Source of the DNA: Variovorax sp. DXTD-1
GTDB taxonomy: Bacteria; Pseudomonadota; Gammaproteobacteria; Burkholderiales; Burkholderiaceae_C
Direction: 5' to 3'
Assembly: GCF_003984625.1 (NCBI RefSeq)
Contig: NZ_RWKH01000021.1
Location: 1 to 64,000 of the forward strand
Length of the DNA: 64,000 nucleotides
Part shown: one piece after another, positions 34,508 through 45,861 of the stretch
Numbering within the stretch: position 1 is the first letter of the stretch
How the letters are laid out: every line of letters begins with the position of its first letter
Made by a program: the position numbers and the translations under genes
Notes under the pieces: model-generated
Database searches by the model: none
What the model was told of the DNA's origin: nothing
What the model saw: only the letters and a program-made list of their open reading frames with translations

Positions 34508-35230
34508 CTAACGACTCGGGTTTCGATCATCCTGCGCGCGAATCCGCTCACCGCGCTCAACGCCTACGTGGTGAATGCTGGCCAACTCGCAGCGCCGCCA
34601 CAAATTCACGCCCTCCAACGCACTGGTGATGTCGATCTCCGCGAGCCCAAAGAATCCCAGGACCACCCCTTGCGCGAATGCCAAGATCAGCGGCTCCGCG
34701 TGCTCGGTATTCCTCAAGCTGCCGCGGATCAGTTGTCCGCCAAGCTCCATGAGCTTCAGTGTGTGGGTAGATGCGGTTGCGGTACTTTCCTTCGGCACCC
34801 GCAGACACCAAAGCCTGGAGCCGAGCGTCCACACCGTGTGGCGCTGAACTTCATCGCACCGCGCCTCTTCGATCACCATCTGCCTTGCGCGGATTGCATC
34901 GAAGTTGCGATGGTCCCGGCCGTAGAAGAATTCAGCGAACTCATCGGCTTTCTTCGCGACGGCGCGTTCGTTGCGCACCATCTTCTCTGTGGCCCTGAGG
35001 TCTGACACACGCTCGACAAGGAAACCTAACTCATCGTCTGACATTCGGCGACCGGACGCGCGGCGGTCATACCAGTCCGCTAGTTGGGCCAAGGTCTTGC
35101 ATTCCGTGAAAGCCCTGTCGAAGGGCATATCAGGAGCGAGGCAAGCGAGCCGCTTGGGCTTGCCTTCAATCCGCTTCAGAGCAGCGTCCCTCCGCTCGGG
35201 CCGCGCTCGAGAAAACTTCCTGCACTTCAT
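34508..35230 (-). CDS. Hypothetical protein of the accessory block
   Basis: A 240-residue protein I do not recognise. The N-terminus is very basic (KCRKFSRARPERRD), the middle is charged and helical (SDDELGFLVERVSDLRATEK) and there is no signal peptide or clear membrane segment. Codon use is less biased than in the core genes, fitting acquired DNA. It is divergent from the XRE regulator gene across a 153-base region with four iterons, so the two may share a control region. Confidence 0.5.
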   Translation of the reverse strand: MKCRKFSRARPERRDAALKRIEGKPKRLACLAPDMPFDRAFTECKTLAQLADWYDRRASGRRMSDDELGFLVERVSDLRATEKMVRNERAVAKKADEFAEFFYGRDHRNFDAIRARQMVIEEARCDEVQRHTVWTLGSRLWCLRVPKESTATASTHTLKLMELGGQLIRGSLRNTEHAEPLILAFAQGVVLGFFGLAEIDITSALEGVNLWRRCELASIHHVGVERGERIRAQDDRNPSR

Positions 35231-35383: not shown

Positions 35384-35656
35384 ATGGCCCGAGTACCACC
35401 CCCACCAGAAGAAAGACACCCTGCGCTGGTGGCTTTTGGCCAGGCCGTGCGAATTCGGCGGAAGGCGATGAATTTTTCGCAAGAGTCGTTCGCCGACGAG
35501 TGCGGGATCGACCGTAGCTACATGGGCGGCGTAGAACGCGGCGAACGCAACCTCGCCATGGTGAACATGATGAAAATCATCGACACCCTGGGCGTGCAGC
35601 CCTCAGAGTTCTTCAAGGCGCTGGATAAGCCCGCCAAGAAGAACAAGTCTGCGTAG
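35384..35656 (+). CDS. XRE-family helix-turn-helix regulator
   Basis: A 90-residue single-domain DNA-binding protein. The helix-turn-helix (FGQAVRIRRKAMNFSQESFA, then IDRSYMGGVERGERN and LGVQPSEFF) spans about residues 18-80; the tail is basic. It resembles restriction-modification controller proteins and phage-type repressors. No good ribosome binding site precedes ATG 35384. It lies in the same accessory block as an ImmA/IrrE protease and a restriction-modification system, either of which it might control. Confidence 0.78.
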   Translation: MARVPPPPEERHPALVAFGQAVRIRRKAMNFSQESFADECGIDRSYMGGVERGERNLAMVNMMKIIDTLGVQPSEFFKALDKPAKKNKSA

Positions 35657-36073: not shown

Positions 36074-36787
36074 CTAAAGGTATACCAAGCTGGTTTGGCG
36101 CAGACGAATCGCCATTGTGGAAGGGGAAACTTGGAAGAGATCGCACAACGCATCGAAGTGGCGGCCGCCAAATCGCCTCGCCTGCGCAACAAGCCGCTCG
36201 AAGGTAGGCAAGGGATTGGGGGAGTTCATCAACGAAGCGTAGCTGGGCCCGAGCAGTTCCCATGCAACGGTGTCCGTCAGCCTCAGGTGCTCCACGCCGA
36301 AACAGGCCAGGAAAGCGAGGCGAAGCTGCTTCCCAGGCACCAAGAAGCAACCGGCGAAGTGATTCGCCTGACGCTCTTTCGGATCGGCAGGCGCATATGG
36401 TTCGGTCAGTCCATGCATCGGCATTTCCCGGTGGTGGTGAAGCCCCGGATGCATGAGCAAGTGTCCGACTTCATGGGCCAGGGTGAAAAGCTTCGTGCGC
36501 GGCTTCTGCTCATCAGAGATCGCAATAACTCTGGCCGGGCGATTGATGAATCCACCTAGCTCAAATCCCTTTCGCGTTCCAGTGCAGCTCAGCCACCCCT
36601 CTTGGACCTCAAAGCCGAGGTACTGTGCAGCAACCCAAGGATCACAAACGTCCATCGGGGTGACGTTTTGCCCCGGCCAAAGCGTGCACTGTCTATCCCA
36701 CAACTCTAGTTGCAGCTTACGCGCCGCCTTCTCAGGGTCGATACGGGTCGTGGCCGGTGTCATTTCGGCACTGTAATACAGATCCAT
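36074..36787 (-). CDS. ImmA/IrrE family zinc metallopeptidase
   Basis: About 237 residues. The zinc-binding motif is AHEVGHLLMHP, an HExxH with a further conserved His, followed by KERQANHFAGCFLVPGKQL, typical of ImmA/IrrE proteins that cleave a partner repressor. The N-terminal part is variable. ATGs at 36787 and 36763 are both possible starts, neither with a good ribosome binding site. It converges on the XRE gene 417 bases away; such proteases often inactivate an XRE repressor, so the two may form a switch. Confidence 0.82.
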   Translation of the reverse strand: MDLYYSAEMTPATTRIDPEKAARKLQLELWDRQCTLWPGQNVTPMDVCDPWVAAQYLGFEVQEGWLSCTGTRKGFELGGFINRPARVIAISDEQKPRTKLFTLAHEVGHLLMHPGLHHHREMPMHGLTEPYAPADPKERQANHFAGCFLVPGKQLRLAFLACFGVEHLRLTDTVAWELLGPSYASLMNSPNPLPTFERLVAQARRFGGRHFDALCDLFQVSPSTMAIRLRQTSLVYL

Positions 36788-36849
36788 CGGAAACGCTATA
36801 TGCGGGGCCAAAGCAAGGGCCTGGACACTACATCTAGTGTTTCTTGGTG

Positions 36850-37237
36850 ACGGGCCGGCCTGACCAACGTGCGCGTCGTAGACGCGGAGCAGCCGGTTCA
36901 TGCAGAGGCGTCTGTCGATGCGGCGATGTGCAGGCTCGGGCTCATGTTCTGCATGAATCCGGCCGCGGCGCTGCCCGCAGCATTCAAAGTCCTGCGACCG
37001 AGCGGTCGCTTCGTCGCACTGGTGTTCGGTGACCCCGCGAACAACCCTTGCCGCTGCCTACGTCGCCTTCGTTCGAAGTTCGGGTTCACCGATCATGGAA
37101 TCCTCGCGCCGCTGGATGCAAAGGCCAAGGAGTCGGCTTGGCGAGAAATGAAGGAGGCGCTTCAGCATATTCGCGGCGATCAGGGCTGGCTGGGGCCAAA
37201 CGAACTCTTGCTCGGCTCGACGACGCGAGCGGGCTGA
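36850..37237 (+). pseudogene. Decayed SAM-dependent methyltransferase fragment
   Basis: The frame encodes a piece of a UbiE-like class I methyltransferase: VDAAMCRLGLMF, NPAAALPAAFKVLRPSGRFVA and VFGDPANNP match the region after the SAM-binding loop. The end (WREMKEALQHI, GPNELLLG) matches the C-terminus of the same family. The N-terminal SAM-binding half is absent and an internal stretch is missing, so the gene cannot be functional. Confidence 0.7.
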
Positions 37238-37509
37238 GGCCAGCGTTGGCAGCTTGCTCTTCACAGTCCCGAGTCGCGTCCAAGGTGCTGGCGGCTTTGC
37301 AGCGATAGTGCCAATTTGCCTGGGCGCATTGGGCGTCAGCAACCGGTCTCAATCAGACTTTTAATTCAACGGCCGCAGCAAATCATCGTCACATTCGATG
37401 CTCGATGCCTCGCGCTCATCCCATGTTCATGGGAGAACGCTCGTAAACCCCCACCCGACAACAGAAGCGGAGGTACACACTCCAGCGCTCATTGAAACAA
37501 GGAGGCGTC

Positions 37510-37634
37510 ATGAAGAAGATTGCAATACTCATCAGTGCGCTTTGCTTAAGCTGTGGAGTACTTGCGCACTCGGGAGGTACCGACAAGAACGGCTGCATCG
37601 CGACAACAAAAGTGGGGGCTCCCACTGCCATTAA
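37510..37634 (+). pseudogene. Small secreted YHYH-domain protein, frameshifted
   Basis: ATG 37510 follows a perfect AGGAGG. It opens a signal peptide MKKIAILISALCLSCGVLA, then HSGGTDKNGC, and the frame then departs into unrelated residues, stopping at 37644. In the neighbouring frame the DNA continues as HRDNKSGGSHCH and TAA at 37632. Restoring one base near 37597 rebuilds the family pattern HSGGxDxNGCHxxxKxGxxHCH. Either the gene is broken by a one-base deletion or there is a sequence error. The intact protein would be a 41-residue periplasmic His/Cys-rich polypeptide, possibly metal-binding. Confidence 0.7.
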
Positions 37635-37918
37635 CAAGCGCTAGGAGTTCCAAGGTATCTCACAGCACATTCGATATGTGATCTGGCTTTGCTAGCCCTG
37701 CTTCGCAGCAATTGCAGAGTCTCGCGTCGCTTGTAGTCGCACCTCATGGATCACCATAGCAGCGAAGTCATCCGAGCTGATGTTGGGATTCAAGTAAGGC
37801 TTTCCCGCTGCATTTCAGTATTGCGGAATGAGTCGCAGCCTGGCTGTACAAAATTCGACTACAAATGTGGCAAAAGAGTTTGGACGGACAACTATGCCTA
37901 AACGGCCGAGGGAGTGCT

Positions 37919-39769
37919 ATGCGGCTGCGCCGATTTGAAATCCGCAACTACAAGTGCATTGAGCACGTGATCCTTGAGTGGGAGGACCTTATCGTCCTCA
38001 TCGGGGAGAACAATGCGGGCAAGTCGTCCGTACTGTCGGCCATCGCCGTGTTTCTCAGTGGCAGTTCCATCAAGGACTCGTCGCTCTTTCGTCGACATCA
38101 AACCGGCGACGCCAATGCGATCGAACTGATAGGGCATTTCGATAGCTTGACCGACGACGAGACGGGCCAGGTCGCCGTGCGCGGTCGCATGGACGGCGAC
38201 CGGTGGGTACTTAAGAAGCGCTACTGGTTTGAGCTTGGCGAAGACGGCGAGGCTGGGGGTTGGAAGGAAGTGCTGTACTCCTTTTCCGGCCTCGAGCAGT
38301 TTGTGGGTTGGCCTGATCCAGACACAACCTGGGCAGCGTTCCCGGCTGACTATCAGCCGATCATTGATTCGTTGCCAAACAAGGGGGCGCGTCCCACCGT
38401 CGGCTCGCGGGACTCGCTTAAGGTTGCCGTGCGCGAACAGCGCCCCGACCTGGTCGTGGTCGGCGCTGCGGCCTGGGTGCCCAATCCCGGCGGCGGCGGC
38501 AATTGGAAGAGCAACGCGAACTCCATCCTGCCGCGGCCCATCCTGGTGAGGGCAGTTCAAGAGGCAAGCGACGAGACCAACGCGAAGGACGCGTCGACGT
38601 ACGGGAAGCTCATCAACCTCATCGTTGAGCGCAGTCTGGCTCAGCGCCCCGAGATGGCCGCGCTCCAAGCGGCTCTGGATGACGTCTTGGCACTTTTCCG
38701 TCCTGACCCCGCCAACCCGCGCCGGCAGGCTCAGGAGGTTCGTGACCTGCAGGACCGCATCAACCGTAGCCTGAACGAGGTCGTCGGCGGCCAGGCTCTC
38801 ATCCGCACCGAAGCGCCTGAGCTGCGCACGATGGTGCTACCGTCTACCTCCCTGGTCATCCGAGATGCTCAAGCAGGCATCGAGACCGAGGTGAGCCATC
38901 AAGGTCACGGCCTGCAGCGGACGCTTGTCATCACGCTGCTTCAGTTGCTTGCTGATGCCCAGGCTCAGGGCGTGCAAGGCGCAGTGCCTGGCTTAGAGCG
39001 CGGCACCATTCTCCTGCTCGAAGAGCCTGAGCTCTATCTGCATCCTCAGATGGAGCGTCTGATGCGCGACGTCCTACATCGCCTGGCGGCGCAGCCGGGT
39101 ACCCAGGTGGCTTGTTGTACCCATTCCCCGGTTTTCCTGGACATCGCCGCGAACTACCGCGCCATCGTGCGCATGTTCAAGACGCCCCAAGGGGACGCGT
39201 CTTGCCATCAAGTGACACAGGACTTGTTCCCCGGGCAACCGAACCAGACCGACAAGCAACGCCTGAACACGGTCGCGCGTTTCGACCCCACGGTCAACGA
39301 GCTCTTCTTCGCCCAACGTGTCGTGCTGATGGAGGAGTTCAGTGCGATTGCGGCCTTCGAGCGCGCCGCTGAACTGATGGGGCTATTCGAGCGCCATTTG
39401 CGTCTGCGGCGAGAGGTCTCGCTTGTGGACTGCAACGGCAAGTCCAACATTCCCGCGTTCTTGCGTGTGCTCAATGCGTTCAACATCCCATACCGAGTTC
39501 TGCACGACGAGGACCCAGGCAATCCCGCAGCACAGGCCACCAATCAGCAAATCCTCGGGCTTCTCCCTCAAGGAGCTGCTCAGGTCCACATGGTGGCCCC
39601 CGACCTCGAAGGGCTGCTGGGCTACCAAGCCCCCGGAAAAAACAAGCCCTATGCGGCGGTTTGCACCGTGGAAAATCTGCACTCTCAGGGACATTTGCCG
39701 GCTGCATTCCAGCAGGCCGTGTGCATGGCCTACTTTGGCCAGCTGGCCGAGCCGCAGCCGGCGGTCTGA
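37919..39769 (+). CDS. OLD-family-like ATPase with C-terminal Toprim-like region
   Basis: A 616-residue protein with an N-terminal ABC-type ATPase: Walker A GENNAGKSSVL near residues 27-37, a signature-like SHQGHGLQRT, and Walker B ILLLEEPELYLHPQ near 363-376. A C-terminal Toprim-like fold follows (VSLVDCNGKSNIPAFLRVL, RVLHDEDP). In OLD nucleases the Toprim begins with an E-G-xx-E motif; here it reads LMEEFSAIA, so the first motif is altered and nuclease activity is uncertain. The start at 37919 has GAGGGAG upstream. OLD and Gabija-type proteins act in phage defence, and this one sits next to restriction genes. Confidence 0.8.
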   Translation: MRLRRFEIRNYKCIEHVILEWEDLIVLIGENNAGKSSVLSAIAVFLSGSSIKDSSLFRRHQTGDANAIELIGHFDSLTDDETGQVAVRGRMDGDRWVLKKRYWFELGEDGEAGGWKEVLYSFSGLEQFVGWPDPDTTWAAFPADYQPIIDSLPNKGARPTVGSRDSLKVAVREQRPDLVVVGAAAWVPNPGGGGNWKSNANSILPRPILVRAVQEASDETNAKDASTYGKLINLIVERSLAQRPEMAALQAALDDVLALFRPDPANPRRQAQEVRDLQDRINRSLNEVVGGQALIRTEAPELRTMVLPSTSLVIRDAQAGIETEVSHQGHGLQRTLVITLLQLLADAQAQGVQGAVPGLERGTILLLEEPELYLHPQMERLMRDVLHRLAAQPGTQVACCTHSPVFLDIAANYRAIVRMFKTPQGDASCHQVTQDLFPGQPNQTDKQRLNTVARFDPTVNELFFAQRVVLMEEFSAIAAFERAAELMGLFERHLRLRREVSLVDCNGKSNIPAFLRVLNAFNIPYRVLHDEDPGNPAAQATNQQILGLLPQGAAQVHMVAPDLEGLLGYQAPGKNKPYAAVCTVENLHSQGHLPAAFQQAVCMAYFGQLAEPQPAV

Positions 39770-39794
39770 CCCAACGACAAGCAGTCAACCCGCA

Positions 39795-40037
39795 ATGGTG
39801 GCGAACTCAAAAGCCAACGAATCAAGCATGCTCACCGGCGAACTCCGCTCCCAAGTCGACTCAATCTGGAACGCCTTCTGGTCCGACGGCATCTCCAATC
39901 CCATGTCGTTGCGAGTCAAGCTGCCATTGCCCACCTCGGGCGTGGCGCTCGTATCGTCAACATCGGTCGCCGATGTTCGCCGCGCTGCAAATTGCGCTTG
40001 CATTACAAGCGGTCAGTCGATCTTCGGCGCCGACTGA
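39795..40037 (+). pseudogene. Relic of a type I restriction methylase gene (hsdM 5' end)
   Basis: About 36 codons from ATG 39795 read MLTGELRSQVDSIWNAFWSD, then GISNP, the near-invariant N-terminus of HsdM/N-6 DNA methylases. After that the frame continues with unrelated residues to 40037. No further hsdM, hsdS or hsdR sequence is present. This is a leftover from a replaced type I system within the 418 bases between the OLD-like gene and the convergent res gene. Confidence 0.7.
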
Positions 40038-40187
40038 CGACAATCAGTCTGAAGTGGGTATACCCGAAGCGCGGCTACGCAGCGACTGCTGTCGATCGAC
40101 AAATCGACGTCAAAAACCGGTATGTGCCAACAAACGGCCATACAGGCACGCCGCGATAGCGTGCGGCGGCCCCTTAAGCCGCATGCC

Positions 40188-42704
40188 CTACTTGGCCATT
40201 TCCTCAAACAGATCATCCAATTGCGGATTACTGGTCATTGGCAGCAAGCGCTTGATGGTCGCAGCCTGATTGATCTCCAATCTCGCGAAGTGCTCGCCAC
40301 CCGCGTTCGTATGCTTGCGGATCAGCTGAATTCGGCCGAACAACGCACCGTGCTTTTGGGCGAACCTGGCGAGGCCGACGGCCTTCTCGAAGTTGTCGCC
40401 AAGGCTCGGGTCATGAGGCTCGAGGATGTCGACATCAAAGGTCTCACTCGTCTTACGCACGATCACGAGGTCCGGGAACATTGGCCGGACGTCCCCGCCA
40501 GTCTCGTAGGGAATCTCGAGCGACCAGGGCTTGCGGTCCACGTTCCTGAGCCAACCCACCACGGCTTGATTCGCCAGCTCTTCCTTGAGCACCCCGGCCT
40601 CCCAGGTTCCAAGCTCTGCCCGGAACTGCCCGCTGCTCTCAACGAAGAGGTGGCGCTCCCAAATGGCATCGCTCGGCTTGCGCCGGAAGTCGATCGAGTC
40701 GGGAAGGTGCCATGGCACGTCGCTGGGCGTCGTGGTGGCCAGCCGGAGGTTCTCATAGGTTGCTCGGCGATGCTGCTTGAGCTTGTGTATCGACTTCTTG
40801 TGCTCGTCGTACAGCGCATCAAAGGCCACGCCAGCGAGCTTCTCCAGCTCGCTCATCTGAGCCGCGTCGCGTGCCAGCACGATTGCCTCGACCTTGACAT
40901 CGACGGCACGGCGCTCAGCATGGGCGCGCCAGTACTCCATTTGCAATCCATGGCTGAACGCTCGGCCGGCCTCCTCGAACAAGCGATCGATGTCGACGCT
41001 TGAGGCGCTAATCTGATAGTCCGCTCCGGGCTCGGACACGTTGGTCCCGTTCTGCACCGCCAGGGTCCGCAAGCCCACGTGGGTGATGGCCTTGGCCGCA
41101 GCTTCGAACTGTCCGGCGGCCTTCAGCGCGGCAACTCGATCGTCCATCCACTTCACGATCTCAGCCTTTGCATTGCCCCAAGCCTCCTCGTCGATCTCGT
41201 CTACGGTCAGGCTGCGGCAAATCGCCATGAATCGGCGCAAGGGACTCTGCGCCCGTGCTGCGTTGACCCGGTAGGTCACGAGTTCGTCCAGAACTGCGAA
41301 CAGGGCTTCGGTCCCCTCGCGGCGCTTGAGCACGACCAGTTCCCGGCTGGAGCCAGCCTCCGTCGGGGGCACCTCTTCCTGGTTGTGCAAAGCCGCGACG
41401 ACACCCTGCACCGCCTGCGTATCGAAGTAGGGCAGGAACAGATGCACATCGTTCAGCGCCGCGTCCTTCTCGATCCGCCGCGCCAAGGGGGTGCGCACCA
41501 TGCGGCCAAGCAACTGGGCGATGTAGGTGTGATCCTCGGCACGCCGGAACGACATCATGACTTCCGCGCGTGGGCAGTCCCAACCGGTAGACAGGCTGGT
41601 CTTGAAGAACACTACGCCGATGTTCTTGTCCGCGTCGATGCGCGATGCCTCCACCTTGCGCACGCGCCGACCGCCTACATCCAGATCGCCAGAGTCGTGC
41701 AGCGCGTGCGCGACCTCGCCTTCATTGAGACGGCGGCCGATCGCGCTCTCGATCACGGTCAATGCGTCGGCGAGATCGGTCTTGGTCAATTGACGGTCGG
41801 TACCGTTCTCCACCTGCACCACCAGCACTGGCCAGACGGTCGCCTCCTGTTCGTCTTCGCAGTAGGCGCCCCAGGCCACCGTCATCTGGCTCCAGCGTCG
41901 CGCCGCCTCCTCCAACAAGCCCATCTCCGCTGTCGTGGCCGATTCCGGGTGGTGGATCAGGATGCGGTCCTTCAACAGGCCCGACTTGCGCACCTCTTCG
42001 GCTGGAATGGCGACCTTGTGCACAGTGTGCGGGGCGTGTTCCAGCAGGTCCATGAAGCGCTTGGGCGTGGCAGACACACCGATCACCAAGGGCATCTTCA
42101 CTAAGCCCGACTGCGAGTGTCCCAGCAGAAAACGCTGCATCAGTGTCTGTGCGGCTTGCGCGCCGCGGCCAGAGGTCATGCCGCGGTGTGCCTCGTCAAT
42201 CACGACGTAGAAGCGGCCGGGGATTGCGCGCGCTGTGTTAGTCAGCGTCTCCCAGATCAGGTGCTGTCGCCCGTCGCCGCGATTGGTCAGCGGCTGGTTC
42301 ACCGCGAGCTTCTGTGTGTTGATGAAGTAGATGCGCCCACCTTGCAGCTGCGGTGCGTCAAAGTTAGCGTCGATGGTGATCAGCTGATTGACGCGGTAGA
42401 CCTTGTCAGACTTGCCCTCGATCTTGAGTCTGGTTTGCTCGTTGAGCTCAGGCATGTCGGACACCCAAAGGATCGCGGCATCCGGCTGCGGTTCCCAGTC
42501 CAGTGGCCATGCCAGTTCGTCGTCGGGCTGGTCGAGGATGGCCTCGAACAGCGCCGTCATGATGATCGTCTTGCCGCTACCAGTAGGTGCGGAGAAGGCG
42601 ATCACCTGTGGGTTGTCGATGGTGGCGAATTTACGCGCAGCGACGATTCTTTCACGCAGCTGGTGCAGCGCCTCCCGCTGGAAATCAAACAACGAGATCT
42701 TCAT
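40188..42704 (-). CDS. res: Type III-like restriction enzyme Res subunit (DEAD/DEAH helicase-nuclease)
   Basis: An 838-residue superfamily 2 helicase with Walker A APTGSGKT near residues 40-47, DEAH box VIDEAHRG, motif III GVSATPKR and motif VI QLLGRMVRTP. A PD-(D/E)xK-like nuclease follows near the C-terminus (MFPDLVIVRK, then DVDILEPHDP). This is the Res architecture of type III restriction systems. The gene overlaps mod by four bases and is translated after it. It would cut unmodified invading DNA after ATP-driven sliding. Confidence 0.86.
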   Translation of the reverse strand: MKISLFDFQREALHQLRERIVAARKFATIDNPQVIAFSAPTGSGKTIIMTALFEAILDQPDDELAWPLDWEPQPDAAILWVSDMPELNEQTRLKIEGKSDKVYRVNQLITIDANFDAPQLQGGRIYFINTQKLAVNQPLTNRGDGRQHLIWETLTNTARAIPGRFYVVIDEAHRGMTSGRGAQAAQTLMQRFLLGHSQSGLVKMPLVIGVSATPKRFMDLLEHAPHTVHKVAIPAEEVRKSGLLKDRILIHHPESATTAEMGLLEEAARRWSQMTVAWGAYCEDEQEATVWPVLVVQVENGTDRQLTKTDLADALTVIESAIGRRLNEGEVAHALHDSGDLDVGGRRVRKVEASRIDADKNIGVVFFKTSLSTGWDCPRAEVMMSFRRAEDHTYIAQLLGRMVRTPLARRIEKDAALNDVHLFLPYFDTQAVQGVVAALHNQEEVPPTEAGSSRELVVLKRREGTEALFAVLDELVTYRVNAARAQSPLRRFMAICRSLTVDEIDEEAWGNAKAEIVKWMDDRVAALKAAGQFEAAAKAITHVGLRTLAVQNGTNVSEPGADYQISASSVDIDRLFEEAGRAFSHGLQMEYWRAHAERRAVDVKVEAIVLARDAAQMSELEKLAGVAFDALYDEHKKSIHKLKQHRRATYENLRLATTTPSDVPWHLPDSIDFRRKPSDAIWERHLFVESSGQFRAELGTWEAGVLKEELANQAVVGWLRNVDRKPWSLEIPYETGGDVRPMFPDLVIVRKTSETFDVDILEPHDPSLGDNFEKAVGLARFAQKHGALFGRIQLIRKHTNAGGEHFARLEINQAATIKRLLPMTSNPQLDDLFEEMAK

Positions 42705-45268
42705 GCTCGCGCCCCCTTTGCATCGCCTTGGACCAATGCTCCAGTGGTTGCCCGATGCTGGTTGTGGTTGATCATGAAGTTGAGCAAGTAGTCGCGGTAC
42801 AGCTGCGCAACCTGCAGGTCGGGGTTGGTCTTCTCGGCGATCTCACGAATCTCCCTGGCCATGTTCTTGAACGACTCATCGGCGTCGGTGACGATGAAGA
42901 CGTGCGACAAGCCCTCCCTGCCGCGAATTAACTTGAGCATGCGCGACATTCGAGTTTCGTCGAGCAGCACAATGAAGTTGCTGCCATCTGGCGCAAACAA
43001 GGCCGGCTCGGGCTCTCCGCGTTTCAATTCAGGCCGACGACCCGCGGCACCGGCCTTGAGCCATAGCAACGGAAGAATCTCGCGGAACGCGCGTCGCAGC
43101 GATACCCGCTCGGATTCAAGAAAGTCGAGCTTGAAGTACGCGAGATTCGCTTCGAAGCCTTTGCTCATGGGGCGCCGCTCCTCCTCTGACACAAGAAGCG
43201 GACCCAGCAGGTCTATGACTTGCGCCTTGAGTTGGTCGAACACTCGCTTGAGTGGGGTGACAATGTAGAAATCAGTAATGTGGTCTTGGCCGTCCAGCGC
43301 CTCCAGCCAGTCGTCAGCTTTAAATGGATCAAAGAGCACGCTCGCCTTGTGCTCTTCCGACACGATGAATGGGCAGGGCTCCTTGACCAAGGTCTGTGGC
43401 AAAGCATCGATCAACGCAACAAGCTGCCTCTTCTTAGCAGCACTCTCCAGTGTTGCTGGATCGACAAAGCCAACCTGCATAAATCGGCGACCCCTTTCAC
43501 GTTCTACGTTCCGCCCAGTGTAGTAGTCGCTCGAGAGGACTGTGCCATCGTCTCGTCGCCCGAGAATGGTGTACTTGTTTCGTGGCCATGTCACCGATCG
43601 ACAGATGCCGAGCGATTCCCATGCCGCATCTCCGGGCTGCAGCGCCCTTGCGCTAAGAGCAGCGGCTTCGTCTGCTGAAACCTCATTGTTCGTCACGAGA
43701 ATGCAGCGGCGCCGGCCGCCGTCTGTAGCGTTGAGCAGATTGACTGCGTTGAGGGTCGTGCCGCTACCGGCGAAGAAGTCGAGAACAAGCCCATTCGGCT
43801 TCTGACCGACGGTTAGACGCAGCGTATCTACAACTGAGTAGAGTGATTTCGGGAAAGGGAAGGTCTTGCCCGGTAATACAGCGCCGACCAAGTTTGTGCC
43901 GTGCCATCCAGCGTGATGCGTGGGGCGATTCCAGACTGTCTTGGCGACTGTTTTTCGACCGTGCGCTACTTCTGGATTCGGGGTAACGATAACTGCGCCC
44001 TGCAAGTCGCGGCCCGAGATCAAGATCTCTCCCGTTTCGATCTTCTGGATTGCAGATTTTCCGAGATACCAGATCGTTCCTCGGCCTTCACCGGGGCGGT
44101 ACTCTGCTACTCGAACGAAACCCTTCTTTGCCAGTTGCCTGAGGTATTCAGGAGATGCGCGCCAGTTTCCTTCCGAACCATCGCTCTTTAGCGGCCAAAC
44201 CGCAGTAGCTCCAGCTGGTATCTGCCAAGCATCCCGAGGAGTTCCAAGAGGCTTTGAATCACCGGCTCCGACCATTTCTCGGGATTCAGGTCGGATGTAA
44301 ACGGGATAGAAGAGCGCTGGGCGATCTACGCGACGAGAATTTGTCCCACTACGCAGGAGTGATTCCCAGCGCACAGTGCTCGGATTATGGGAGGGCTTGT
44401 CGTTGAGTAGATCATCTGCCACCAGAGGGGGTTCGGCAGAGCCGATGAAAAGGAAGTAGGCGTATTCCTCGACTCGGGCAAGCTGCTGCTTTCTCGTCTG
44501 ACCAGGCGCATTGATTACGATGGTGACCATCTGCATTCGAGCGTCCGGAAACATCTTCTCCAGCAGCATTCCGAGGTGCAGATATTCCTTCTCGTCAATC
44601 GTCACAACGAGTACAGAGTTGTCCGGCCTGAGGAGACGCTTGGCGAGCTGAAGCCGCCTCTCCATAAATGCGAGCCACTTACTGTGCCGCCAGCCATCGT
44701 TGCCGTCAACATAGTCGTTGTTGTACTTCCAGTCGCGCGCGCCGGTGTTATACGGCGGATCGATGTAGATACAGTCCACCTGTCCCGCGTAAAGATATTC
44801 CAGCAGCTGCAGCGCGTGGTAGTTGTCGGCTTCGATCAACGTATGCCAAGGCGCGTCCGCCGGGCCGTTGGCCACGGCATCAACCGGGACCAGTGATGGA
44901 AAGATCGGGTCGCCGAACTGGCGAACGACCAAGAGTTCCTCGACGGCCCATTGAGAGGCTGCGACCGGGGCATCGCGATCGGGCGTATGCCCAGCGGCCT
45001 GTTGAGCCTCCCTCCCTGGCTTCACGCAGACGGCCATGCCATTCCTGATCTGCTGGACCTGCCAAACGTCCTTGATCGGCCCATCGCGCCGGCAAACCAG
45101 ATCGCCGCGTCGCGGCTTGGCCTTGCGTAGCGGCAGCAACTCCGGAAGATGGTCCTCGAACACGAGGCCGAATTTCTTGCCCCTCGATGCGTTGGCCCAC
45201 TCGGCCGCTAGCCGATCGCGTAGACGTGGGTCGCTGACTTGCGAAATCAAGTCGTGGATGGCTGACAA
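42701..45268 (-). CDS. mod: Type III-like DNA methyltransferase Mod subunit
   Basis: An 855-residue beta-class adenine/cytosine-N4 methyltransferase. The catalytic motif DPPYNTG is at about residues 176-182 and precedes the SAM-binding motif LDFFAGSGTT near 500-509, the order of type III Mod enzymes. It is longer than typical Mod proteins (about 650), with about 150 residues before the catalytic motif (VCRRDGPIKDVWQVQQI) and a long C-terminal region (SHVFIVTDADESFKNMAREI). It sets recognition for both modification and restriction with the overlapping res gene. Codon use is less extreme than in core genes. Confidence 0.86.
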   Translation of the reverse strand: MSAIHDLISQVSDPRLRDRLAAEWANASRGKKFGLVFEDHLPELLPLRKAKPRRGDLVCRRDGPIKDVWQVQQIRNGMAVCVKPGREAQQAAGHTPDRDAPVAASQWAVEELLVVRQFGDPIFPSLVPVDAVANGPADAPWHTLIEADNYHALQLLEYLYAGQVDCIYIDPPYNTGARDWKYNNDYVDGNDGWRHSKWLAFMERRLQLAKRLLRPDNSVLVVTIDEKEYLHLGMLLEKMFPDARMQMVTIVINAPGQTRKQQLARVEEYAYFLFIGSAEPPLVADDLLNDKPSHNPSTVRWESLLRSGTNSRRVDRPALFYPVYIRPESREMVGAGDSKPLGTPRDAWQIPAGATAVWPLKSDGSEGNWRASPEYLRQLAKKGFVRVAEYRPGEGRGTIWYLGKSAIQKIETGEILISGRDLQGAVIVTPNPEVAHGRKTVAKTVWNRPTHHAGWHGTNLVGAVLPGKTFPFPKSLYSVVDTLRLTVGQKPNGLVLDFFAGSGTTLNAVNLLNATDGGRRRCILVTNNEVSADEAAALSARALQPGDAAWESLGICRSVTWPRNKYTILGRRDDGTVLSSDYYTGRNVERERGRRFMQVGFVDPATLESAAKKRQLVALIDALPQTLVKEPCPFIVSEEHKASVLFDPFKADDWLEALDGQDHITDFYIVTPLKRVFDQLKAQVIDLLGPLLVSEEERRPMSKGFEANLAYFKLDFLESERVSLRRAFREILPLLWLKAGAAGRRPELKRGEPEPALFAPDGSNFIVLLDETRMSRMLKLIRGREGLSHVFIVTDADESFKNMAREIREIAEKTNPDLQVAQLYRDYLLNFMINHNQHRATTGALVQGDAKGARA

Positions 45269-45747
45269 GTGTGGTCCTCGTTTCTGGTTCTACCGGTCGA
45301 CCGACAAGGTCGATCCAGTTGGGTACTTTGGTGTTGTTGTGGCAACCCAGCGATTGCCGATTTCGCAGAGTTTGCCAAAACCGTGGCGCCGATCGACTAG
45401 CAGACAACTCGGATCGAGCTGCGTACGGCAAGCATAAGCGACCGGTTTCGGCGCTCGCAGCCCCTCGGCAGTCAAACCCTATCGGCCGCAATCAGGCTGA
45501 AGCCGACTTTGCGGCGGACTTGAATGAGCTTACCCAGGCAGCTTGTCAAGATCCCTTCGCCATAGTTGCGTTTCTAGAACTTCAACTCGATGCACCTCCT
45601 GGTGCTCGGCATCCACCGCGCCAGAAGATGGGAGAGGAATCGGCCCAGTCCCCCTACCCCATCGGCCTCCAACTAGCATCGGATTCGGTCAAATTTCCTC
45701 GAACCAATCGGACGATAGAACCGCATCCCCCAGACAAGAAAACAAAA
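45269..45747. other. About 480 bases upstream of mod without a convincing gene
   Basis: Open frames here on both strands lack family similarity, codon bias and ribosome binding sites. The segment must hold the mod-res promoter and the right boundary of the accessory block next to tRNA-Arg. I see no integrase fragment and no copy of the tRNA 3' end at the left side of the block. Confidence 0.5.
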
Positions 45748-45777
45748 AAGCCGGACACCCTTGAAAGTGTCCGGCTT
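45744..45777 (-). terminator. Rho-independent terminator of the tRNA-Arg gene
   Basis: An 11-bp perfect stem (AAGCCGGACAC / GTGTCCGGCTT) with an 8-base loop lies 9 bases beyond the tRNA 3' end. On the minus strand it is followed by a run of T (AAAAAA at 45744-45749 on plus). Confidence 0.88.
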
Positions 45778-45786
45778 CTTGCTATT

Positions 45787-45861
45787 TGGTCCCGCCGCCA
45801 GGAATCGAACCTGGATCTCAGCCTTCGGAGGGCCGAATTCTATCCGTTGAAATACAGCGAG
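45787..45861 (-). tRNA. tRNA-Arg(CCG), slightly degenerate 5' half
   Basis: The minus strand folds as a tRNA with encoded CCA (45787-45789). The T arm is CCAGG-TTCGATT-CCTGG and the anticodon loop is CTCCGAA, giving anticodon CCG between stems CGGCC and GGCTG. The D loop is AACGGATA. The acceptor stem CTCGCTG/CGGCGGG closes with two G-U wobbles, and the D stem has a T10-T25 mismatch. It is probably still functional, but the 5' side looks mutated relative to a perfect CCCGCCG partner. The accessory block ends at its 3' side, a typical integration target. Confidence 0.82.

Follow-up and report, generated by a model that had tools for sequence, protein, structure and literature searches.

The window, i.e. 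the whole stretch of 64,000 nucleotides of Variovorax sp. DXTD-1 DNA (contig NZ_RWKH01000021.1) that was analysed, contains at 34.5–45.8 kb a block of genes whose G+C content (about 0.57–0.62) is below that of the near flanks (about 0.66–0.70). At the left end of this block, a gene for a 240-aa protein with no family assigned, hereafter U34 (34508–35230, − strand), diverges from a gene for an XRE/C-protein-like regulator (35384–35656, + strand; HTH_3, E = 2.5e-10 by Pfam; Control_protein, E = 1e-20 by PADLOC). These are followed by an ImmA/IrrE-type metalloprotease gene of the Peptidase_M78 family (36074–36901, − strand; E = 8.1e-14 by Pfam), in which the HEVGH motif is present, and by a SAM methyltransferase fragment (36869–37237, + strand; Methyltransf_11, E = 9.6e-06) covering only profile positions 47–94 of 95, which is probably a relic and thus further gene debris in the island. 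The preliminary description, which had placed the XRE and ImmA/IrrE genes together with the restriction cluster at 37919–45268, was right about their presence but not about their position, as both lie to the left of that interval. Between the ImmA/IrrE gene and the next large gene, a 50-aa ORF (37492–37644) was also seen, which begins like a signal peptide and contains the stretch HSGGTDKNGC. The remainder of the block consists of a gene for a 616-aa OLD-like protein with an ABC-type ATPase and a Toprim domain (37919–39769, + strand), an hsdM relic (39795–39908, + strand), res (40188–42704, − strand), mod (42701–45268, − strand) and tRNA-Arg(CCG) (45787–45861, − strand), which forms the right border of the variable region. 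A terminator-like hairpin lies between mod and the tRNA (45745–45780, both strands scored); 9 such sites were counted in the region against a mean of 9.9 in shuffled sequences, i.e. there was no excess.

U34 had no family match in profile searches and no match in the plasmid search. Of the 101 genomes of the genus, 13 carried it, the own genome among them, and one of these had four matches. The same XRE gene adjoins U34 in 5 of the 10 loci examined, window included, and in three of the loci bearing both genes the XRE proteins were 95–97% identical, the U34 proteins just 63–87%.

Beside the tRNA-Arg(CCG) gene stand a gene for a TetR regulator and an efflux operon of the RND type, identified by sequence. 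The TetR gene was present in all of 21 genomes, hand-picked from 26 members of the genus, and the tRNA end adjoined it in all 21 fetched loci. The opposite side was hypervariable: with genomes linked whenever they had a stretch of 150 bases in common within 1.2 kb, 22 genomes (the 21 and genome G791) fell into 15 sequence groups. At this very site G416 carries a tyrosine integrase gene, G409 carries type I genes for HsdM and HsdR, and G402 carries the same U34-XRE pair, after which come HsdM and HsdS genes of type I with an AAA ATPase. In G791 the order was as in the window, namely U34 (78% identity), XRE (97%), other genes, res-mod, tRNA and TetR, its res-mod pair sharing 30% and 44% identity with that of the window; in G401 a pair with 31% and 42% identity lies a few kb from the tRNA. 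A search of the window for the 24-base tRNA end, allowing up to 3 mismatches, gave a single copy, and no integrase was found among the 10 window ORFs scanned by Pfam. The island block is the variable-side filling of a tRNA-Arg(CCG) hotspot. The reading of the locus as a defence island was thus borne out, in that restriction, OLD and phage-type regulatory genes share a hypervariable tRNA-Arg hotspot at which relatives hold other restriction systems. It is an ordinary defence hotspot of known type beside a tRNA gene, and it adds a tRNA-Arg(CCG) defence hotspot for the genus.

The hsdM fragment reported earlier could be recovered as a match to HsdM N-termini from 39795 to about 39908, comprising just about 38 codons. 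It keeps about 28 conserved N-terminal residues of type I HsdM but lacks everything past about codon 38. The best plasmid match had 71% identity over 28 aa (E = 5e-8), and the 20 records listed of 41 plasmid HsdM matches aligned over about 28 N-terminal residues at 51–71% identity; in 19 of these 20, the match ended at query residue 38 or 39. The scrap recurs at five other places in 101 genomes of the genus (four in other genomes and one elsewhere in its own genome), where the match ended at residue 38 in all five cases, and in the four of these five places that were compared, DNA similarity stopped at 39901. The homology of the window copy ends at 39901–39908. Its start differs from the HsdM starts of G402 and G409. 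The scrap fits hotspot turnover, and is probably what is left of a type I system that stood here earlier.

The description of res and mod as a type III-like pair also stood. Both frames are intact and overlap by 4 bases, Res matched ResIII (E = 4.2e-14) as well as a DEAD profile in Pfam, and Mod matched MTase_III of PADLOC over residues 1–583 (E = 1.3e-152). As in type III restriction-modification, the genes form an overlapping mod-res operon, Mod, predicted to be an N6/N4-type DNA methyltransferase, bears DPPYNTG from residue 170 and FAGSGTT from residue 499, and Res, a DEAD/DEAH helicase, bears helicase motifs (TG.GKT, DEAH and SAT) that were invariant in 4 of 4 aligned sequences. It differs from type III systems in the C-terminal nuclease-like motif of Res, PD...DILEPH...K, a variant with a similar form in its subfamily; PD and PH...K were invariant in 4 of 4, but in the window DILEPH stands at the E/D-x-K core. 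Mod had been thought to be about 200 residues longer than typical. It is indeed longer (855 aa versus 694, 709 and 711 aa), but the main extra part amounts to 110 residues, not about 200: positions 584–594 and 598–696, which are missing in three relatives (L075, L076 and L085) and present in the viral contig L052; the Mod of L086 showed the same 110-residue gap in its tblastn match. Res was 81% identical to that of L052, and dN/dS against L052 was 0.057 for Res and 0.113 for Mod, i.e. purifying selection. In that viral contig (L052, 103–8014), Res and a Mod cut short at the start are followed by genes for an AAA_5 protein and an McrBC-family protein, which are McrB- and McrC-like by order. Mod would methylate adenines at a site of its own, and unmodified DNA would be what Res translocates on and cuts.

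The OLD-like ORF, upstream of whose start a second in-frame start is present at 37865, was confirmed as a 616-residue ATPase/Toprim-like protein: both domains were found by Pfam (AAA_15, E = 5.4e-34; OLD-like_TOPRIM, PF20469, E = 5.9e-10), and the top PADLOC match was Old (E = 6.9e-69), with the AriA and GajA models ranking lower. The Walker A, Walker B and H-loop motifs read IGENNAGKS, ILLLEEPEL and CTHSP, and their catalytic residues were invariant in all six unbroken sequences of the close clade described below. The nearest solved structure by sequence was 6p74, the Class 1 OLD nuclease of Thermus scotoductus (E = 6.9e-28). A full-length model had a mean pLDDT of 52.3, too weak for reading the active site; its best PDB match was again 6p74, with low TM-scores of 0.24–0.28. 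A model of the Toprim domain only (mean pLDDT 75.6) also had 6p74 as its best match (Foldseek E = 2.9e-6; VIA Z 13.6, rmsd 3.4, 148 aligned residues), followed in the fold list by Class 2 domains of B. pseudomallei and X. campestris and by GajA, with lower VIA Z values (10.8 for the B. pseudomallei domain, 6nk8, and 8.8 for GajA).

The protein resembles Class 1 OLD proteins (6p74 and P2 Old) in being encoded by a single gene, with an N-terminal ABC-type ATPase and a C-terminal OLD Toprim domain, and in matching metal-A residues and the direct metal-B glutamate. With Class 2 OLD proteins and GajA of Gabija it shares the combination of ATPase and Toprim, and many GajA models match it, but no UvrD-like GajB adjoins it and the fold scores were lower than for Class 1. 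Among the 10 ORFs scanned by Pfam, including the next full genes on both sides, neither a UvrD/PcrA/Rep-like GajB helicase nor a reverse transcriptase was found, on which ground membership in Gabija (Class 2) and in the retron OLD group (Class 3), respectively, was rejected. Downstream of the gene there is only the 38-codon hsdM scrap and then the convergent res. WonAB, in which an OLD-type ATPase is paired with another nuclease partner (as described in PMC12137116), is likewise unlike it. Since the Toprim fold best fits 6p74 and the gene has no GajB or reverse transcriptase neighbour, we take the product to be a stand-alone, Class 1-like OLD protein, as judged from sequence and model. Lacking one of the ligands that define Class 1 in the literature, it is classed here as a variant within the OLD family, and not as a canonical member of Class 1. 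Its location among defence genes also sets it apart from 6p74 and P2 Old, and runs contrary to the statement in the review PMC10568477 that Class 1 OLD genes do not occur near other defence genes. Placement in a housekeeping family, looked for as a refutation of a variant OLD protein, was not found, the nearest structure being the T. scotoductus Class 1 enzyme.

In order to place the protein among its relatives, a one-genome-per-species collection was scanned with exact short peptides, a dependence by which relatives are undercounted. Six close relatives (62–86% identity) were found, in Rhizobacter, Trinickia, Paraburkholderia, Pseudoxanthomonas, Comamonas (C. testosteroni, 86%) and one Acidobacteriaceae MAG. 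Genome sets for the order (399 genomes), the class (369) and the genus (101), which overlap and all include the own genome, gave no close relative besides the window itself, so that a close OLD occurs in a single genome of the genus set. Distant relatives numbered 12 in the order set (E 1e-20) and one in the class set (E 1e-40). The protein matched 67 plasmid and 2 phage records, all below 60% identity, in four of which the motif was read, and viral contigs, scanned also with a distant OLD as query, gave no close relative. An OLD-like gene in Rhizobium phage RHph_Y3_56_1 (L078, 4001–5699) is annotated as two CDS divided inside the Toprim domain and adjoins an integrase gene. In a tree of 19 rows, the six unbroken close sequences formed one group with a support of 100/100; the Trinickia copy (L002) was excluded from alignments and tree, as its frame is broken.

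The preliminary description had pointed out LMEEFSAIA in place of the usual E-G-xx-E at the Toprim start, and this was read at residues 470–478 (E472-E473-F-S475-A476). All 7 close members, counting the window and spanning two phyla, have the form E-E-x-S-A, and E-G-x-x-[E/D] was kept in 17 of 17 distant OLD proteins examined, comprising 13 from numbered genomes and 4 from annotated plasmid or phage records; in 6p74 the start reads E-G-Y-G-D. Compared with 6p74 and P2 Old, the glycine is replaced by glutamate and the second acid by alanine. The suggestion of a new variant is therefore upheld, the altered start being common to all 7 close members and absent from the 17 distant ones. The E-E-x-S-A clade is rare and, judged from alignments, has an altered metal-B site throughout, and this is one mildly unusual, clade-wide change within a known nuclease family. 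An altered OLD Toprim start was not named in the titles and abstract openings of the literature searched, from which many subscription papers lay out of reach.

Alignment to 6p74, with ligand roles taken from PMC7049728 and PMC6755086, placed the metal-A residues of the T. scotoductus enzyme (E377, D431 and D433) at E472, D530 and D532 of the window protein, and its metal-B positions D381, S478 and E480 at A476, D562 and E564. The A476 position was alanine in 7 of 7 close members, the D562 position was asparagine in L005, and E472, D530, D532 and E564 were invariant in all six unbroken sequences. Within the Toprim part (residues 440–616), 9 of 17 acidic positions of the window protein were invariant across these six; the four retained canonical ligands were all among them, which four random draws from the 17 would give with a chance of 0.053, and for this reason the invariance is only mild evidence for a retained site. 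No conserved basic residue aligns with R487 of the T. scotoductus enzyme or K550 of P2 Old; K576, which lies close by and is invariant, is only a candidate counterpart.

For this clade, the published OLD mutants give conflicting indications. In B. pseudomallei, whose enzyme is a Class 2 OLD, E404, which matches A476, holds metal-B waters, and E508, equivalent to E564, contacts the metal directly (PMC6755086); single substitutions including E404A are described there as having no discernible effect on in vitro cleavage. Triple metal-B mutants of the T. scotoductus and B. pseudomallei enzymes are reported to have still nicked plasmid (PMC7049728, PMC6755086), and a triple metal-B mutant of Cran1 is reported to have lost all nuclease activity (PMC12796447). 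In P2 Old, which kills in a recBC background, all tested substitutions in the ATPase and Toprim motifs, including E402 at the A476 position, abolished killing (PMC7049728), so an alanine at this position could abolish function. A clade in which one ligand change is fixed and the rest kept offers a ready natural test of metal B in OLD proteins.

With a probability of roughly two-thirds, we read the locus as a defence island of independent modules, in which a functional, stand-alone Class 1-like OLD protein with an altered metal-B site would stand beside an unrelated Mod-Res system. By analogy with the family, from which its trigger, substrate and effect on phage are taken, the ABC-type ATPase dimer would sense an infection cue during phage infection and then release the Toprim nuclease, a mechanism already put forward for other members of the family, with growth arrest or a block of the phage as the outcome. 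In the clade, E-G-x-x-E has become E-E-x-S-A with one of three metal-B ligands gone, metal A and the main metal-B glutamate remain, and the altered site may lower processive cleavage, leaving nicking. The likeliest consequence would be a working but altered OLD nuclease, perhaps nicking-biased or directed at another nucleic acid, and not a dead protein. More tentatively, and with doubt prevailing, the clade might be a natural metal-B-altered lineage that now acts as a single-metal nickase, or has a metal-B site rebuilt with E473 for a substrate such as tRNA, and has been favoured by selection as an OLD effector type of its own.

An alternative is that the Toprim domain of the clade has no nuclease activity and acts in nucleic-acid binding or regulation, with the ATPase part as effector. 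The fixed alanine at a metal-B ligand and the loss of killing on E402 substitution in P2 Old would agree with it, and in Cran1 it is the ATPase, not the nuclease, that appears critical according to PMC12796447. In addition, YbjD, a Class 1 OLD of E. coli, is described as keeping its phage phenotype without the Toprim domain (PMC13261556); since it acts on phage in that form, the nuclease may not matter in the window protein either, and on this ground the alternative is retained, though we regard it as unlikely. It is opposed by the invariance of the metal-A glutamate, the DxD aspartates and the direct metal-B glutamate, and by the cleavage activity of the E404A mutant.

That OLD and Res-Mod belong together in one multi-gene system, for instance with OLD acting when restriction fails, was suggested by their adjacency in the window and by their three intact frames. 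The two genes next to each other, OLD and res, are however convergent, none of the six close OLD loci carries Res or Mod (L001 and L003 are cut short by contig ends), and none of five res-mod loci (L052, L075, L076, L085 and L086; 9.7–17.5 kb each) carries this OLD. The joint system, and with it the earlier grouping of the two, was rejected for this lack of co-occurrence, and we consider it very improbable.

Returning to the reading of a functional OLD protein among independent modules, decay was considered as a further alternative, in which the protein would be a passenger whose Toprim domain is degenerating in this genome, as the preliminary description had also allowed. The altered motif and the debris nearby (hsdM scrap and methyltransferase fragment) could be taken in its favour, as could the broken frame of relative L002, but the frame of the window gene is full-length, its altered motif is shared by relatives with as little as 62% identity, across two phyla, and dN/dS against the nearest of them, L006, was 0.079. 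Because the motif is clade-wide, with the altered residues and the remaining ligands invariant in six sequences, and because of this dN/dS value, decay of this copy was rejected and retains hardly any plausibility. Values of dS were saturated (−1) in 13 of the 15 OLD pairs, which were not used; selection on the gene as a whole is clear. In L002 (10001–11826), the OLD-like frame is broken near codon 497, beyond the Toprim start motif.

A housekeeping repair ATPase unrelated to defence, as in the case of Cran1, is scarcely credible, for although some OLD proteins are described as cellular (PMC12796447), this one occurs in a single genome of the 101 of the genus, is patchy across Pseudomonadota and an Acidobacteriota MAG, and has at least one scanned defence-type neighbour in 5 of 6 relatives.

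These neighbours were scanned in part (9 proteins by PADLOC or NCBIfam), and no partner was constant. An Mrr/nSTAND3 protein (PDC-S73) was found next to the OLD gene in L006, type II restriction-like and Dam-like proteins in L005, a DUF6602 protein with PD-DExK/NucC-type PADLOC matches in L001, and a DUF2130 gene with no PADLOC match in L003. The neighbour in L002 scored above the NCBIfam cut-off for anti-phage ProA, for which no paper was found in the literature search, and that in L004 is related to this ProA-like protein by PADLOC (PDC-S37, Hhe). In L004 (9989–13933) the OLD gene also adjoins a glmS-like gene, named from sequence, and the glmS-like side is the classical Tn7 target side.
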